This document shows, one piece after another, positions 3,017 to 12,842 of a stretch of 12,842 nucleotides of DNA. Under the pieces are notes generated by a model. The model saw nothing but the letters and a program-made list of their open reading frames with translations. It was not told the DNA's origin and did not search any database. The stretch covers positions 1 to 12,842 of the forward strand of contig CAMWKC010000035.1 of assembly GCA_947174735.1 (NCBI GenBank), written 5' to 3'. The stretch comes from an uncultured Porphyromonadaceae bacterium. GTDB taxonomy: Bacteria; Bacteroidota; Bacteroidia; Bacteroidales; Muribaculaceae. A program made the position numbers and the translations under genes. The first letter of the stretch is position 1; each line of letters starts with the position of its first letter.

Positions 3017-5506
3017 ATGGACATTTCGTACAAGTGGCTCAAACGCTACATAGACATCGACCTCCCGCCTCGCGAATTAGCAGCTGTGCTGACTTCGCTG
3101 GGTTTGGAATGTGATACTGTCGAGGAGGTAGAAACGGTCAAAGGAGGACTGCGCGGCCTCGTGACCGGCAAAGTGCTCACCTGCGAAGAGCACCCTAATT
3201 CAGACCATCTGCACATAACCACAGTTGACCTCGGTGACGGACAGCCGACACAGATAGTGTGTGGCGCACCAAACGTGGCAGCCGGACAATCGGTGATAGT
3301 GGCCCCTGTGGGATGTACGCTCTATGACGGTGACAAAGAATTCCAGATTAAGAAGTCGAAAATACGTGGTGTGGAGTCATTCGGTATGATATGTGCCGAG
3401 GACGAAATCGGTATTGGTACTTCGCACGATGGTATTATGGTTCTTCCCGAGACAGTTAAAGCCGGTATACCTGCCGCCGAATACTTCAATGTGCAGAGCG
3501 ACTGGCGTCTGGAAGTAGAACTGACTCCTAACCGTGTGGACGCTGCTTCACATTATGGAGTGGCCCGTGACCTGAAGGCACATATAGCACGTAATGACTT
3601 TGAGCACCGGGGCCAGGCAGAACCGCCTATCGTATCGCTGCCTGACACATCAGCTCTGCGTCCTGACCGTATGGATGGCGCCGTGAAGGTGACGGTAGAG
3701 GATACCGAAGGCTGTCTGCGCTATTCAGGTGTAACGCTGCGTAATGTGAAGGTGACTGAAAGTCCCGAATGGCTGCGTGATCTGCTCATTGCGGCAGGCC
3801 AACGTCCTATCAATAATATAGTTGACATAACCAACTTCATACTTCTCGGTCTCGGTCAGCCGCTACACTGCTTTGACCTTGCCAAAGTGGCCGGTCAGGA
3901 AATTGTGGTACGTACATGTCCTAAGGATACACCTTTTGTTACACTCGATGGTGTGGAACGCAAACTGTCGGAAGCTGACCTTATGATATGTGATGCAGCC
4001 AAACCTATGTGTATAGCCGGTGTATTCGGCGGTCTTGACTCGGGCGTGACTGAAGATACTAAAGATGTATTTATCGAGTCAGCTTACTTCAACCCGACAC
4101 GTGTTCGCCGTACAGCACGCCGTCACGGTCTGAGCACCGATGCCTCGTTCCGCTACGAGCGTGGGACTGACCCCAATATCACAGTCTATGCCGCGCGCCT
4201 CGCAGCTGTCCTCATTAAGGAATTGGCCGGAGGAGAGATGTGTGGTGATGTATCCGACTTCTATCCTGTACCAGTAAAGGATGTCGAGATGGAGTTTTCG
4301 CTTGACTATTGTGCGCGTCTCATAGGTAAGCGTCTACCTAAGGATTTAGTAATATGTATACTGCGTGCTCTTGAAATCGAAGTACGTCCTACCGACAACG
4401 AAGATGTGCTGCATCTGCGTGTTCCGGCCTATCGTGTAGATGTGACACGTCCATGCGATGTGGTTGAGGAAATACTGCGTGTTTACGGATATAATAATGT
4501 TGAGTTCGGCACCGAAATGCATGCTAATTTGTCGCAGCGCGGACGAACCGACGAAGTCAACGCCCTACAAACTCTCGTCAGCGAACAGCTTACAGGCCAG
4601 GGATTCAGTGAGATTCTAAATAACTCGCTGACTTCAGCCAACTATTATACCGAAGGTAAAGCCTTCCCTGCCGAACGATGTGTACGTCTGCTCAATCCAT
4701 TGAGTAACGAACTTTCCGTAATGCGTCAGACCTTGCTTTTCGGTGGGCTTGAAGTAATCAGCCATAATGTGCGCCGCAAAACTGCTGATTTACGTCTGTA
4801 TGAGTTTGGCAATGTCTACAGCTTCGATCCTGCTGCCGTCGCTACTGAGGAGAAACCACTCATACCTTATAGCGAACGCTTCATGTTAGGATTATGGTTG
4901 ACAGGTAATTATACCCAGCCTTCTTGGAATAGCAAAGCTGCCGAAGCTACTTTCTATGACCTTCGTGGCGTAGTAGACAACATAATGTCTCGTATGGGTA
5001 TACCGGCGTCGGCTGTAACTATCGCACAGGAGAGCGATGACTTGCTCGGTGCCATGTTGACTCTCGCAAGTCGCGATGGAAAGACTATAGGACGTATAGG
5101 AATAGTGGCACGCAAAGTACTGAAGGATTTCGATATTGAACAGGATGTAGTGTTTGCCGAACTCGATTTCGATGTGCTTTGCCGTTTAGCAGCACGCACT
5201 AAAGTGACCTTTACCGACCTGCCGCGTACACAGCCGGTACGTCGTGACCTCGCGTTGCTCATAGATAAGGGTACAGCGTTCGCTGACATAGACCGTACTG
5301 TGCGCAAAGCTGCCGGCAAGATGTTGCGTTCACTGACACTTTTCGACGTCTACGAAGGTGAAAAGCTTCCTGAAGGTAAGAAGAGCTATGCCATTGCCCT
5401 TACTCTACAGGACGACGAAAAAACTCTGACCGACAAACAGATTGATGCCGTCATGCATAAAGTGACCGATGCACTCGCCAAAAGTGTAGGCGCCGAGTTA
5501 CGCTAA
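3017..5506 (+). CDS. pheT: Phenylalanine--tRNA ligase beta subunit
   Basis: This is the beta chain of the cytoplasmic alpha2-beta2 phenylalanyl-tRNA synthetase. The alpha chain attaches Phe to tRNA-Phe using ATP; the beta chain binds tRNA and edits mischarged Tyr-tRNA-Phe. At 829 residues it is full length (family about 790-830). It begins with the usual MDISYKWLKRYIDI. Domains in order are an EMAP-like tRNA-binding domain (about 42-155, with HPNSDHLHI at 59-67), the B3/B4 editing domain (about 215-385), the B5 domain (about 405-480), the catalytic-like core, and a C-terminal ferredoxin-fold anticodon-binding domain (735-829, starting LPRTQPVRRDLALL). pheS is not in the window, so the two subunits are encoded apart, as is common in Bacteroidetes. 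yebC follows after 46 bases, probably in the same transcript. Confidence 0.98.
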   Translation: MDISYKWLKRYIDIDLPPRELAAVLTSLGLECDTVEEVETVKGGLRGLVTGKVLTCEEHPNSDHLHITTVDLGDGQPTQIVCGAPNVAAGQSVIVAPVGCTLYDGDKEFQIKKSKIRGVESFGMICAEDEIGIGTSHDGIMVLPETVKAGIPAAEYFNVQSDWRLEVELTPNRVDAASHYGVARDLKAHIARNDFEHRGQAEPPIVSLPDTSALRPDRMDGAVKVTVEDTEGCLRYSGVTLRNVKVTESPEWLRDLLIAAGQRPINNIVDITNFILLGLGQPLHCFDLAKVAGQEIVVRTCPKDTPFVTLDGVERKLSEADLMICDAAKPMCIAGVFGGLDSGVTEDTKDVFIESAYFNPTRVRRTARRHGLSTDASFRYERGTDPNITVYAARLAAVLIKELAGGEMCGDVSDFYPVPVKDVEMEFSLDYCARLIGKRLPKDLVICILRALEIEVRPTDNEDVLHLRVPAYRVDVTRPCDVVEEILRVYGYNNVEFGTEMHANLSQRGRTDEVNALQTLVSEQLTGQGFSEILNNSLTSANYYTEGKAFPAERCVRLLNPLSNELSVMRQTLLFGGLEVISHNVRRKTADLRLYEFGNVYSFDPAAVATEEKPLIPYSERFMLGLWLTGNYTQPSWNSKAAEATFYDLRGVVDNIMSRMGIPASAVTIAQESDDLLGAMLTLASRDGKTIGRIGIVARKVLKDFDIEQDVVFAELDFDVLCRLAARTKVTFTDLPRTQPVRRDLALLIDKGTAFADIDRTVRKAAGKMLRSLTLFDVYEGEKLPEGKKSYAIALTLQDDEKTLTDKQIDAVMHKVTDALAKSVGAELR

Positions 5507-7209: not shown

Positions 7210-7368
7210 TTATAAGCGAGCTAAAGCTCGCACACAGAACCAGGAGGCACCTCGGACGGCTAAAAGTCGAAAGAGGTGTCTCCTGGTTCTGTGTGCAGCG
7301 GTGAGGTAGGGGGTGCTTTCTGAAGCGGTGCCTCCTGGTTCTGTGTGCGAGCTTTAGCTCGCTTATAA
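7210..7368. repeat. 42-bp perfect inverted repeat with a competing inner stem, between convergent genes
   Basis: 7210-7251 is perfectly complementary to 7327-7368 (42 bp). A third, partial copy of the right arm at 7273-7296 can pair instead with 7230-7253 (24 bp, one G-U). Two alternative hairpins therefore compete for the same left arm. Each outer arm also contains its own small palindrome (GCGAGCTAAAGCTCGC on the left). It lies 8 bases after the stop of the plus-strand secreted-protein gene and about 6 bases beyond the stop of the minus-strand gene at 7375, so it most simply acts as a bidirectional terminator. The repeated arms also resemble a dispersed intergenic palindrome. Confidence 0.9.
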
Positions 7369-9889: not shown

Positions 9890-9919
9890 GAAGCAGTAAT
9901 GTTGAGTTGTTCACCTTAA

Positions 9920-9945
9920 CGGGGTGCCACCCGTAGCGCTCCCCG
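9920..9945 (-). promoter_or_regulatory. GC-rich hairpin in the leader of the flippase-like gene
   Basis: CGGGG (9920-9924) pairs with CCCCG (9941-9945) around a 16-base loop that can itself fold. It would sit in the leader RNA just after the predicted transcription start and about 30 bases before the ATG at 9889. It could affect translation, but it matches no riboswitch that I recognise. Confidence 0.3.
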
Positions 9946-9957
9946 ACATTCAAACTG

Positions 9958-9965
9958 CAAATATA
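9958..9965 (-). promoter_or_regulatory. -7 promoter element for the flippase-like gene
   Basis: On the minus strand the sequence reads TATATTTG, a TAnnTTTG match, with a start expected near 9951. No TTTG is seen at -33, so this is a partial match. The remaining intergenic sequence to birA (9966-10093) shows nothing else clear. Confidence 0.45.
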
Positions 9966-10093
9966 GTCATAAACCTCCATACTCACGCCACAACTATCCC
10001 ACTTTTCCACCATTGAACCTCTATTCTACCACTACAATCAAAGAAGGAACCTAAAGATAGAAAGAAGGGATAGAGGGCCAAGACAGAAAAAAT

Positions 10094-11032
10094 CTAAGAG
10101 TGTTGGGGAAGGAGATATTCGACTTCTTTGAAAGCATAGGTACGTTCAGTGCCGTCAGGAAGACGAAGATGAAGGAGGCCTATAGGCTCGATGTCGGCTA
10201 TGACGGCCTTAAAGGTGAGACCGGTAGCACGGTCACGGTAGGGATAAAACTGTCCGTCGCCACGATAGAGACGCTGTAGAAAAGCAGTGTGGGTAGCTTC
10301 ACGGTCGGTTGGAGTAGAGACGGAAGCTAAGCGCTTTTCAAGTAGGGAAGCCAGCTGCGTACGCAGCTGGTCAAGGTTATAGCGGCGAGCGCTATCGGAG
10401 TAATCGGAATTATCGGATTTCTCGGAGCTATCAGAGCTATCAGAGCTATCAGAGTTATCGGAGTAATCGGAATTATCAGACTTATCAGAAAATTCCGAAA
10501 GCTCTGATTGTTCTGATAGCTCCGATAGTTCCGATGACTCCGATAATTCCGATAACTCCGATTGCTCCGAGAAATCCGACACCGTAAGCTGAAGGAGAGA
10601 GACAGGATTAGGCGCGTCGCTGATAAAGCGGGTCTGATTGACGTTGAGGCCAACGCCAATGATGCTGTGCATGATAGATGTGCCCATGACCGCGTGTTCG
10701 ATAAGTATACCGCATATTTTGCGATCGCCAACATATATGTCGTTCGGCCATTTGACTGTAGCTGTAAGGCCGTAAGTCGCGAGAAGGTCGGTTACAGCCA
10801 GAGCAGTCGCTTCAGAGATGGAGAACTGGCTGCGTGCCGGCATATCTTCAGGACGTATCAGAAGGGAAAACGTGAGATTAGCACCCGGTTCTGATTCCCA
10901 GCTATTGCCACGCTGTCCACGTCCGGCAATCTGTCGGGCAGCTGTTACCATAGTCAGATGAGGTAATTCAGCGGCATGTTGAGCGAGCCATGTGTTAGTA
11001 GAACTCACCTCATCAAGAGATATGTGTGTCAT
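10094..11032 (-). CDS. birA: Biotin--[acetyl-CoA-carboxylase] ligase carrying an in-frame repeat insertion
   Basis: A class I biotin protein ligase (no N-terminal DNA-binding domain) that makes biotinyl-AMP and transfers biotin to a carrier lysine on biotin-dependent carboxylases. It begins MTHISLDEVSSTNTWL. It has the biotin/ATP-binding GRGQRG (37-42) with SWES following, KWPND (94-98), GILIE (108-112), IGVGLNVNQ (125-133) and a C-terminal SH3-like domain (about 270-308, ending FKEVEYLL). The normal order is interrupted after NPVSLLQLT (142-150): residues 152-214 are a 63-residue Ser/Asp/Glu-rich tract (SELSE, then SDNSDYSD triplets) translated from the 9-bp palindromic repeat. The expected helix resumes at RRYNLDQLRTQL. 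At 312 residues it is about 60 longer than usual. All catalytic motifs are intact and the insertion falls between the catalytic core and the last helix, so the protein is probably active. It lies 8 bases downstream of tsaE in one operon. Confidence 0.95.
   Translation of the reverse strand: MTHISLDEVSSTNTWLAQHAAELPHLTMVTAARQIAGRGQRGNSWESEPGANLTFSLLIRPEDMPARSQFSISEATALAVTDLLATYGLTATVKWPNDIYVGDRKICGILIEHAVMGTSIMHSIIGVGLNVNQTRFISDAPNPVSLLQLTVSDFSEQSELSELSESSELSELSEQSELSEFSDKSDNSDYSDNSDSSDSSDSSEKSDNSDYSDSARRYNLDQLRTQLASLLEKRLASVSTPTDREATHTAFLQRLYRGDGQFYPYRDRATGLTFKAVIADIEPIGLLHLRLPDGTERTYAFKEVEYLLPQHS
10391..10579. repeat. Palindromic 9-bp repeat element inserted in frame within birA
   Basis: 189 bases, exactly 21 units of 9 bp. 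On the birA strand the first half is TCGGAGNNA-type (Ser-Glu-x) and the second half TCCGATNNC-type (Ser-Asp-x), which are reverse complements of each other. The whole is therefore a large imperfect palindrome centred near 10496. The outermost 16 bp (10413-10428 with 10564-10579) pair perfectly. Both strands are the same family as 1-150 and 11490-11671. Confidence 0.92.
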
Positions 11033-11040
11033 AATGCTTA

Positions 11041-11475
11041 TTACGATTCAAAGGTAAGTAAACGGCTGCCGTCAGGTTGCGGTTCGATACTGACCCAGAC
11101 TGTATCGTCAGGCAACATCGGCTCTATCTGACGCGGCCATTCCATAAGGCACAAAGCTCCCGAGTCGAAATAATCCTCAAGACCCATGTCGACTGCTTCG
11201 CGCAGGTCATCAATGCGGTAAAAGTCAAAATGGAATATAACCGGGTAAGCAGAGTCACTACCGTCCGCATGATACTCATTGATAATGCTGAAAGTAGGAC
11301 TGCCTATGTCGTCAGTCACACCTAACTGACGACATACCTCACTGATAAACGTAGTCTTACCGGCACCCATCGGAGCCTCAAAAGCGAAATGCCGACGTGC
11401 GCCTATAGCGCTCACGAACGCGGCGGCCGCCTCAGGTAATGTCTGAAGCGACTCTATTAAAATCTGATGTCTCAT
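11041..11475 (-). CDS. tsaE: tRNA t6A-modification ATPase TsaE
   Basis: A 144-residue cytoplasmic P-loop ATPase that works with TsaB and TsaD to make N6-threonylcarbamoyladenosine at position 37 of ANN-decoding tRNAs. Motifs seen, numbered from the chosen start, are Walker A (APMGAGKTTF, about 32-41), the SPTFSIINEY switch (about 60-69), the HFDFYR Walker B region (about 83-88) and LCLMEWPRQ (about 109-117). The reading frame stays open another 67 codons upstream to 11676, but that part is only the 9-bp repeat read in a Tyr-Arg-Asn register. The Met at 11475 (MRHQILIESL) gives a family-typical length and sits directly before the core fold. birA follows after 8 bases. The leader appears to contain the 182-bp palindrome. 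Confidence 0.95.
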   Translation of the reverse strand: MRHQILIESLQTLPEAAAAFVSAIGARRHFAFEAPMGAGKTTFISEVCRQLGVTDDIGSPTFSIINEYHADGSDSAYPVIFHFDFYRIDDLREAVDMGLEDYFDSGALCLMEWPRQIEPMLPDDTVWVSIEPQPDGSRLLTFES

Positions 11476-11489
11476 AGTTGGGAATTTAG

Positions 11490-11671
11490 TTGGCGGAGTG
11501 GTCGGAGTAGTCGGAGCTATCGGAGTTATCGGATTTCTCGGAGTAATCGGAACTATCGGAGTTATCAGAGCTATCGGAATAATCCGAAGATTCGGATAGT
11601 TCAGATAGTTCCGATAACTCCGATAGCTCTGATAGTTCCGATAGCTCCGACTACTCCGACCACTCCGCCAA
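11490..11671. repeat. 182-bp palindromic 9-bp repeat (giant hairpin) between divergent genes
   Basis: The outer 35 bp form a perfect stem (11490-11524 with 11637-11671). Inside it, the 9-bp units (for example GTTATCGGA) pair in shifted register because the left arm has about two more units than the right. The tip is an ATCCGAA-GA-TTCGGAT hairpin at 11582-11597. It lies between the tsaE start (11475) and the dehydrogenase start (11757), in the divergent promoter region, not at a gene end, so a simple terminator role fits poorly. Confidence 0.94.
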
Positions 11672-11673
11672 TG

Positions 11674-11681
11674 CAAATTTA
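11674..11681 (-). promoter_or_regulatory. Candidate -7 element for tsaE-birA
   Basis: On the minus strand this reads TAAATTTG, fitting TAnnTTTG; no -33 box is seen at the right spacing. A start near 11667 would place nearly the whole 182-bp palindrome in the tsaE leader. Confidence 0.4.
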
Positions 11682-11714
11682 GTTAAATTTAGCCTCAATA
11701 TGAGAAATCTTTAT

Positions 11715-11722
11715 TAACTTTG
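11715..11722 (+). promoter_or_regulatory. -7 promoter element for the dehydrogenase gene
   Basis: TAACTTTG matches the Bacteroidetes TAnnTTTG box. A start near 11729 gives a short leader to the ATG at 11757. A clear -33 TTTG at the usual spacing is not seen. Confidence 0.55.
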
Positions 11723-11756
11723 TAGCAAACACGCAAAAGAAAACATCACAGAGAAA

Positions 11757-12790
11757 ATGGGAAAAGTTTTGATTATCGGCGCCGGAGGCGTCGGCTCAGT
11801 AGTAGCGGCCAAGTGTGCCCAGAACCCTGAAGTGTTCAACGAAATCGTACTGGCCTCACGCACCAAAGAGAAGTGCGACCGTATCGCCGAGCGTCTTAAC
11901 GCTGGTATTGTCACTGACCGTGTGGATGCTGACTCGGTAGAGGAGCTTTGCGAACTTATGCGCCGTCATCGTCCCGACATTTGCATAAACGTGGCTCTCC
12001 CTTATCAGGACCTCACTATCATGGAAGCCTGTCTGCAGTGTGGTGTCAACTATCTCGACACAGCTAACTTCGAGCCCAAGGACGAAGCTCACTTCGAGTA
12101 CTCATGGCAGTGGGCTTACCGCGAGCGTTTCGAGAAAGCCGGTCTGACCGCTATCTTAGGTTGTGGTTTCGATCCGGGAGTATCGGCCGTATTCGTAGCT
12201 TACGCTGCCAAGCATCACTTCTCAGAGATGCGTTATCTCGATATAGTTGATTGCAATGCCGGTAATCACGGCAAAGCTTTCGCCACCAACTTCAACCCTG
12301 AAATCAATATTCGCGAAATCACCCAGAAAGGAAAATACTGGGAAGATGGCAAATGGGTTGAAACAGAGAACTTAGCTATTCACCGTCCGTTGACCTATCC
12401 TAATATCGGTGTACGCGAATCATACCTGCTCTATCATGAAGAGCTCGAATCGTTGGTACAGAACTATCCCACGATACGCCGTGCCCGTTTCTGGATGACC
12501 TTCGGACAGGAATACCTCACTCATCTGCGTGTCATACAGAACATCGGAATGGCCTCAATAGAACCTATAATGTACAACGGTCAGGAAATTGTACCTATAC
12601 AGTTCCTTAAGGCCGTGCTGCCTGACCCCGGTTCACTCGGAGAAAACTACACCGGCGAGACTTCTATAGGTTGCCGTATCAGAGGTCTTGACAAAGAGGG
12701 TAAAGAGTCGACCTACTACATCTACAACAACTGTTCGCATCAGGAGGCATACCGCGACACAGGTGCGCAGGCAGTAAGCTACACTACCGG
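11757..12790 (+). CDS. Saccharopine dehydrogenase-family protein, probable carboxy(nor)spermidine synthase; 3' partial
   Basis: An NAD(P)-dependent enzyme of the saccharopine dehydrogenase (Lys9-like) family. The best match is carboxynorspermidine/carboxyspermidine dehydrogenase, which reductively condenses aspartate semialdehyde with a diamine in the alternative polyamine route common in gut Bacteroidales. It shows a Rossmann GAGGVGSVVA (8-17), ASRTKEKCD (33-41), YLDTANFEPKDE (99-110), GCGFDPGVSAVFVAYAAKH (135-153) and a C-terminal SYTTG segment. About 344 residues are genuine. The family runs to about 395-400, with a segment continuing after TTG. The apparent stop at 12798-12800 lies in adapter-derived sequence and is created by a mismatch to it, so the gene is simply cut by the contig end. 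The decarboxylase partner is not in the window. Lysine-pathway saccharopine dehydrogenase is the less likely alternative. Confidence 0.9.
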
Positions 12791-12842
12791 CTGTCTCTGA
12801 TACACCTCTCCGAGCCCACGAGACTCCTGAGCAGCTCGTATG
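12791..12842 (+). other. Illumina Nextera adapter contamination at the contig end
   Basis: 12791-12824 matches the Nextera transposase adapter read-through (starting CTGTCTCT, ending CCGAGCCCACGAGAC) with two mismatches (12799 T to G, 12806 A to C). 12825-12832 is TCCTGAGC, which equals a standard Nextera i7 index. 12833-12842 matches the start of the following flow-cell sequence with one mismatch (12834). This is not genomic DNA. Confidence 0.93.

Follow-up and report, generated by a model that had tools for sequence, protein, structure and literature searches.

A tract of nine-base units lies in frame in birA of the present genome, and it is probably one site of a resident family of palindromic TCNGA-N4 arrays that turn over in place. 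The repeat unit is TCNGA followed by four variable bases (nine bases, or three codons), and the units form two head-to-head arms, those of the left arm reading TCRGARNNA and those of the right arm reading TCRGARNNA on the opposite strand. In the window (the whole stretch of 12,842 nucleotides that was analysed; Table 1), the birA tract shows exact TCNGA cores in 21/21 units at a spacing of nine bases (10395-10579), its longest arms are 77-81% complementary (inverted repeats I7-I11), and its fold of -103.3 kcal/mol lies far below the -48.9 averaged by shuffled sequences (z = -13.6; 0/200 shuffles equal it). The palindrome of 21 nine-base units that the earlier note had described within the birA frame is thus real. 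Non-coding palindromes had also been claimed elsewhere in the window; this holds for the array at 11490-11671, which has 18/18 cores within 11502-11659 and a counterpart in the sister species G045 (L165:3-195, matched via one flank; L numbers denote genomic stretches), but the array at 1-149 shows one arm only, at the contig end.

Table 1. Features of the window, and proteins elsewhere in the present genome and in G045 that carry arrays in their reading frames
Feature	Position	Strand	Basis or remark
birA, biotin--[acetyl-CoA-carboxylase] ligase	10094..11032	-	312 aa; Pfam BPL_LplA_LipB 8.5e-20
birA in-frame insert, 64 codons, residues 151-214, Ser/Asp/Glu-rich	10391..10582	-	Orthologue alignment; low pLDDT
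TCNGA-N4 array in birA, 21 units, head-to-head palindrome	10395..10579	.	
birA array left arm, TCRGARNNA units on + strand	10395..10480	.	Inverted repeat I7
birA array right arm, TCRGARNNA units on - strand	10485..10579	.	Inverted repeats I7-I11
Second palindromic array, between divergent tsaE and saccharopine dehydrogenase-like gene	11490..11671	.	Inverted repeat I6, 83% complementary
Third array, 17 TCNGA units, one visible arm, cut by contig end	1..149	.	
tsaE, next gene upstream of birA	11041..11474	-	Pfam TsaE 4e-33
Saccharopine dehydrogenase-like gene, divergent from tsaE	11757..12800	+	Pfam Sacchrp_dh_NADP 1.3e-35
OstA-like protein			Array internal and C-terminal
PorW/SprE-like type IX secretion lipoprotein			Array C-terminal
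XerD			Array in C-terminal tail
HipA-like protein, G045			Array C-terminal
Protein without Pfam or NCBIfam family, G045			In-gene array

The BirA protein scores 125.6 bits against NCBIfam TIGR00121 (cut-off 83.1). A 56-protein BirA alignment that includes the present genome and G045 shows it to retain all conserved catalytic motifs, invariant columns and the C-terminal motif, as the earlier note had stated. The same alignment, a check which that note had proposed, gives no counterpart of residues 151-214 in any of the 54 more distant orthologues (54/54), and the BirA of G045 bears an insert at the matching position. The extra residues are in frame as claimed, though they number 64 (10391-10582) and not 63 (10391-10579). 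At E ≤ 1e-20, 96/111 genomes of the genus gave a BirA match, and a single match spanning the insert was found in the present genome and G045 only. The dN/dS ratio is 0.059 in the N-terminal part of birA, 0.206 in the C-terminal part past the insert and 0.262 in the insert itself (64 aligned codons). Because the domain past the insert is under purifying selection and the catalytic residues are intact, the birA array appears to be translated. An AlphaFold2 model built on the 56-row alignment has a mean pLDDT of 84.4; values per ten-residue block are 41-61 over residues 151-210 and 74-98 elsewhere except for the last two residues, and a helix drawn over residues 154-169, where the insert begins, is of low confidence. 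Judged from the substitution pattern and the model, the birA array is a translated linker that is predicted to be disordered. Quite likely, it persists as such a linker between the catalytic and the C-terminal domains, tolerated rather than useful. It is scarcely credible that repeats were chimerically joined into birA by the assembly: the draft has 388 contigs and several arrays stand near contig ends, but the G045 assembly has the same birA site, frame and flanks, and other protein records show shorter linkers at that place.

The present genome (G000; a draft of 2.49 Mb, 72% complete) gave 59 blastn matches to the array, and at least 26 of its places hold at least five units, a possible further place (C217) being left out of the count. 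In G045 at least 42 runs were found, some of which are halves or near-copies of one array, with the possible places C132, C111, C151 and C34 left out. The array-rich genomes are incomplete drafts. Two similar arrays with similar flanks stand about 2.1 kb apart in G045 (L163:1988-2226 and 4089-4327), reflecting either a tandem duplication or an assembly duplication. Array matches occur in 21/61 genomes of the genus, the present one included (blastn, E ≤ 1e-3), and at E ≤ 1e-6 in 39/397 genomes of the family, 6/393 of the order and 1/395 of the phylum, the present one being counted each time; since one array served as the blastn query, diverged arrays go unseen, and some of the matches comprise a short stretch or one arm only. 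The phage and plasmid collections gave no array match. In this family-wide search, likewise proposed earlier, the distribution of arrays is patchy.

Run lengths range from 41 to 311 bases, with about 200 bases per site, and no array of at least five units arose in one mononucleotide shuffle of 338,383 bases. The core T, C, G and A occur at 0.989-1.000 in 1,000 non-coding units, with position 3 and the spacer variable; the unit detector favours exact cores, and strongly decayed arrays fall outside these counts. The order of arms is purine then pyrimidine in 45/78 arrays and the reverse in none, the other 33 being mixed or one-armed. Exact base pairing from arm to arm is only slightly higher than oriented units of this composition would produce by themselves: z averages 0.68 in non-coding arrays, with 5/47 above 2, and 0.03 in coding arrays, with 0/9 above 2. 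The structure is better described as oriented units set head to head than as a precise hairpin. Selection on base pairs for an exact hairpin was rejected as the main driver, because redealing the spacers within an arm costs little complementarity. The longest direct self-repeats exceed those of unit-shuffled arrays (medians 20 vs. 15 bases, 95th percentiles 50 vs. 30 bases; 56 arrays). Genome-wide copying of arrays is not supported, shared stretches being only slightly longer within a genome (95th percentiles 29 and 25 bases) than between genomes (24 bases; 18 in unit-shuffled arrays). There is no avoidance of TCNGA outside arrays, a feature considered under a restriction or methylation idea (1316 observed vs. 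1089 expected from base composition).

An array stands at the matching G045 place for 20 of the 26 places in the present genome, through one flank only at L003, L018, L025 and 11502, and two more (L012 and L021) match in part; the comparison covered array-bearing stretches of G045, so that it is biased to shared sites and empty ones could be missed. At L012 (vs. L168) and L021 (vs. L184), one flank adjoins a G045 array and the other is about 2 kb distant, and G045 has a gene between the two flanks (in L184, the HipA-like gene); these are either array-mediated deletions or misassemblies. The flanks of L019 were not found in the whole of G045, and those of L020, which match at the start of one contig and in another contig, show no empty site there. 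The 300-base flanks of arrays are 80-98% identical between the two species. Among 16 orthologous pairs, the identity of array bodies is above the non-orthologous mean in 9, equal to it in 1 and below it in 6; only 4/16 (L004, L015, L022 and L023) beat every non-orthologous comparison, and 14 longer pairs show no significant orthologous likeness at any of five positions (P = 0.13 or more). The 36 bases immediately left of the arrays are 0.59 alike by an ungapped measure, and array borders change too. Most sites are shared, and orthologous bodies resemble each other, on average, no more closely than do those of unrelated arrays. These results suggest that such arrays stay put while their length and sequence change.

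In a third relative, G398, OstA is 83% identical, no BirA was found in a genome search at E ≤ 1e-20, and one weak array match was obtained genome-wide. Seven distinct array sites were matched through their flanks in the 690 kb of G398 that were examined, and intact TCNGA arrays stand at 0/7 of these readable sites. The arrays at the internal and C-terminal OstA sites have decayed and are still Ser/Glu-rich; the L010 site has a decayed array with a long perfect hairpin, and at the L016 site the array is replaced by a hairpin that has A and T tracts. Arrays of a different 9-base unit, TCTTATAAR, occupy the L013 and L020 sites, and no array is present at the L161 site, which has one in G045. This was the sole array-less site seen when target duplications were looked for, and no clean empty site was found. 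The absence of intact arrays from all seven sites suggests that array maintenance depends on lineage. A palindrome of the present genome at L024:2700-2850 mixes TCTGATAAG and TCTTATAAG units and is possibly an intermediate between two unit types.

It is also evident from protein records that the birA site varies among closer relatives. Among the best 120 of 5,407 matches in a protein search that scored 8,000 candidates, at least five close BirA relatives (P0002-P0006, one partial) were found beyond those from the genome searches, and together with the proteins of the present genome and G045 they form one clade with 99% support. Linkers in this clade, measured from PNPVS to the next helix, are 72 (present genome), 78 (G045), 40, 34, 25, 24 and 18 residues long, and five outgroups have a linker of 8 residues. 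The P0006 linker has nearly the same ends as that of the present genome with a much shorter Ser-Asp tract between them; in P0003 and P0004 the linkers are Ser-rich and clear units are absent. Since linkers of 18-78 residues occur within a clade of 99% support, the linker site is, on the evidence of protein sequences compared across species, old within the clade and its length fluid. The birA tract has the look of a resident array that lengthens, shortens and degenerates; it may descend from one insertion in the founder of the clade or have grown out of a short Ser/Asp linker. A low-complexity expansion at the protein level, independent of the intergenic repeats, would agree with the shorter, Ser-rich linkers of close relatives and with the free variation of third codon letters, but it is highly improbable, because the intergenic arrays share unit, polarity and palindrome with the birA array, most of them have stops in that frame, and a palindromic form is not expected of coding expansion.

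The earlier note's reading of an inserted element, if taken to mean a recently mobile unit, is not supported. That the family is mobile in the manner of RPEs or MITEs, with palindromic copies that a transposase inserts in trans and occasionally in frame, is distinctly unlikely in our view. The dispersed copies, in-frame position, palindromic form and patchy distribution among the family genomes all speak for it, as does the G045 site L161, which is without an array in G398. Against this, no common leader, tail or consensus was recognised beyond the 9-mer in runs of such varied length, most sites are shared with G045 (in a comparison biased to shared sites), target duplication was not recognised, and G398 may just as well have lost an array at L161. 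The range of linker lengths at one site in the BirA clade is taken as further evidence against recent insertion of a mobile element.

Arrays inside reading frames were found at seven sites in the present genome and G045: in birA, in the OstA-like gene twice, and in the genes for PorW/SprE, XerD, the HipA-like protein and one family-less protein. All seven translate as Ser-(Glu/Asp)-x. Coding arrays are open in their own frame in 10/10 cases, which is partly circular, as open frames had defined them. Among non-coding arrays, 10/46 have an open Ser-x frame on one strand or both and 31/46 have another frame open, so genes do not simply take the commonest open frame. Open frames preceded by 70 or more codons run through 13 arrays of other species, and some of these frames may be spurious; the Ser-x frame is used in 9/13, with a second frame also crossing two of the nine, and 4/13 (L033, L195, L199 and L206) are crossed only in frames other than Ser-x. 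Because the 9-base unit equals three codons, changes in array length cause no frameshift. In genes, purifying selection would then retain stop-free Ser-(Glu/Asp)-x versions, and unit changes would keep the frame.

Outside genes the arrays concentrate at 3' ends. Neighbouring genes of runs of at least 8 units were called with a simple codon-usage caller, whose gene starts are rough (the called tsaE start is 131 bases away from the array, and only 27 bases separate the array from the ATG at 11474). At most 10 bases from a run, or within its first units, lie 38/60 neighbouring 3' ends and 1/35 5' ends (P = 9e-10, Fisher's exact test). Leaving out 13 runs with one side undefined and 9 in-gene runs, the 41 classified intergenic runs comprise 17 convergent, 20 codirectional and 4 divergent cases, 11490-11671 being one of the last, as against 11, 119 and 15 among 145 array-free gene pairs; the convergent excess (17/41 vs. 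11/145) gives P = 1e-6 by Fisher's exact test, and both P values are too small because the two species have sites in common and single arrays were in part entered as two half runs, as happened to two convergent arrays (L167 and L168). The L003 array stands after a 5S rRNA gene, and the same flank followed by an array opens the G045 contigs C92, C15, C152 and C46. More tentatively, arrays at 3' ends might form hairpins that work in both directions and terminate or protect transcripts, a possibility to which we give somewhat less than even weight. This would explain why several arrays nearly fill the stop-to-stop gap of convergent genes (bases left: 1 + 7 in L007, 0 + 5 in L016 and 0 + 9 in L173). 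A terminator role is a hypothesis drawn from array position and from the L016 site of G398; no terminator-like site (a stem with a T tract behind it) was detected at either array within 9900-11900 of the window. Bidirectional intrinsic terminators, which form a hairpin between convergent genes, have far shorter stems than the TCNGA arrays, and the T tract is missing at both arrays near birA.

The near-invariant core, the purine-then-pyrimidine polarity without a single reverse case, and the occurrence at convergent 3' ends and after rRNA would also be consistent with binding arrays at the DNA level, in which a protein (a topoisomerase, nucleoid or termination factor) recognises TCNGA at 3' ends and the birA copy is accidental. 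We hold this to be doubtful, as coding arrays retain the core although binding is not needed there, and G398 lacks intact arrays at all readable sites. For the resident arrays that we favour, change of the bodies would come about through gain, loss and replacement of 9-base units, and there is about an even chance that this occurs by slippage or template switching aided by the self-complementary core. Slippage alone leaves the near-invariant core (about 99%) and the arm polarity unaccounted for; the core would be accounted for by a protein that binds it or by some process of active maintenance. It is rather unlikely that machinery acting in trans actively writes the arrays and maintains them at gene 3' ends, holding core and polarity constant while the bodies turn over, with its unit specificity changed or lost in G398; if true, array sites would be rewritable landing places, and proteins such as BirA would carry translated copies.

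A literature search outside subscription papers and preprints found no published description of the TCNGA-N4 family, and several known systems resemble it in part. Rickettsia palindromic elements (RPEs) and Wolbachia palindromic elements occur in and outside genes, in frame, at conserved sites and as solvent-exposed inserts, and the biotin ligase gene of Rickettsia japonica carries RPE-6, of 96 bp (PMC3767692). Like RPEs, TCNGA arrays lie both in frame within genes and outside them, and orthologues in related species carry them at a common site. By description, RPEs are families of defined sequence of 100-150 bp, whereas TCNGA arrays consist of 9-base units over 41-311 bases with bodies that vary between species, and they concentrate, unlike RPEs, at gene 3' ends. 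The likeness to RPEs proposed earlier therefore stands for the effect (in frame, conserved sites) and falls for the sequence, as there is no fixed family sequence. The parallel with the R. japonica biotin ligase is noteworthy as an analogy that concerns the gene and not the position of the insert.

REP elements have an associated REP transposase (RAYT). They are palindromic, prefer gene ends and are transcribed with their neighbours (PMC12306157), and BIMEs are REPs in alternating orientation (PMC2817692). The 3'-end location is common to REP/BIME and TCNGA arrays; E. coli REPs are stem-loops of 14-40 nt with a common motif and are seldom in coding DNA, whereas TCNGA arrays have 9-base units, about 200 bases per site and tens of sites, several of them in frame. 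The family is RPE-like in its effect in genes and REP-like at gene ends, and it fails a tested defining feature of each: it falls outside RPEs because it has no fixed-length family sequence, and outside REPs because it is too long and partly coding.

Porphyromonas gingivalis belongs to the Bacteroidales. Its minisatellite-bearing MITE, BrickBuilt, has tandem units in 19 copies, with copy-number differences at conserved sites; it has a 23-base unit and a leader and tail with terminal inverted repeats, and is always intergenic, 49-591 bases from genes (PMC4596501). By eye, no terminal inverted repeats were found outside the TCNGA units, and array ends run into differing flanks. Bacterial minisatellites or VNTRs gain and lose whole units, usually in one orientation and at one locus each. 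TCNGA arrays share with them the length variation at one locus and differ by their head-to-head arms and many sites.

Shared sites with differing bodies, a near-invariant core, the decayed, swapped or missing arrays of G398 and graded BirA linker lengths are apparently new. In-gene palindromic repeats are known from Rickettsia and Wolbachia, and a similar outcome is now seen in Bacteroidales with a simple 9-base unit. Graded linker lengths at one site make the conversion of a non-coding repeat to protein sequence directly testable, and shared sites, rewritten bodies and a near-invariant core pose the question of the maintaining process.

A self-complementary core was rejected as a universal rule: in two other genomes, arrays at L058:4822-4908 and L079:3608-3674 have a 9-base period, a variable spacer and a constant, non-palindromic TAGGC core, and the habit of 9-base arrays may be wider than the TCNGA unit. 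The window also holds a perfect 42-base inverted repeat, its arms 75 bases apart, at 7210-7368. It contains the 17-mer CAGAACCAGGAGGCACC, which is found again in L017 and three times in L165, making it a second dispersed palindromic repeat. Beside the one-armed array, positions 155-2693 of the window carry three phage-family genes, one of them for a portal protein (phrog_156, 2.3e-60), and are perhaps a prophage remnant, judging by these gene families.
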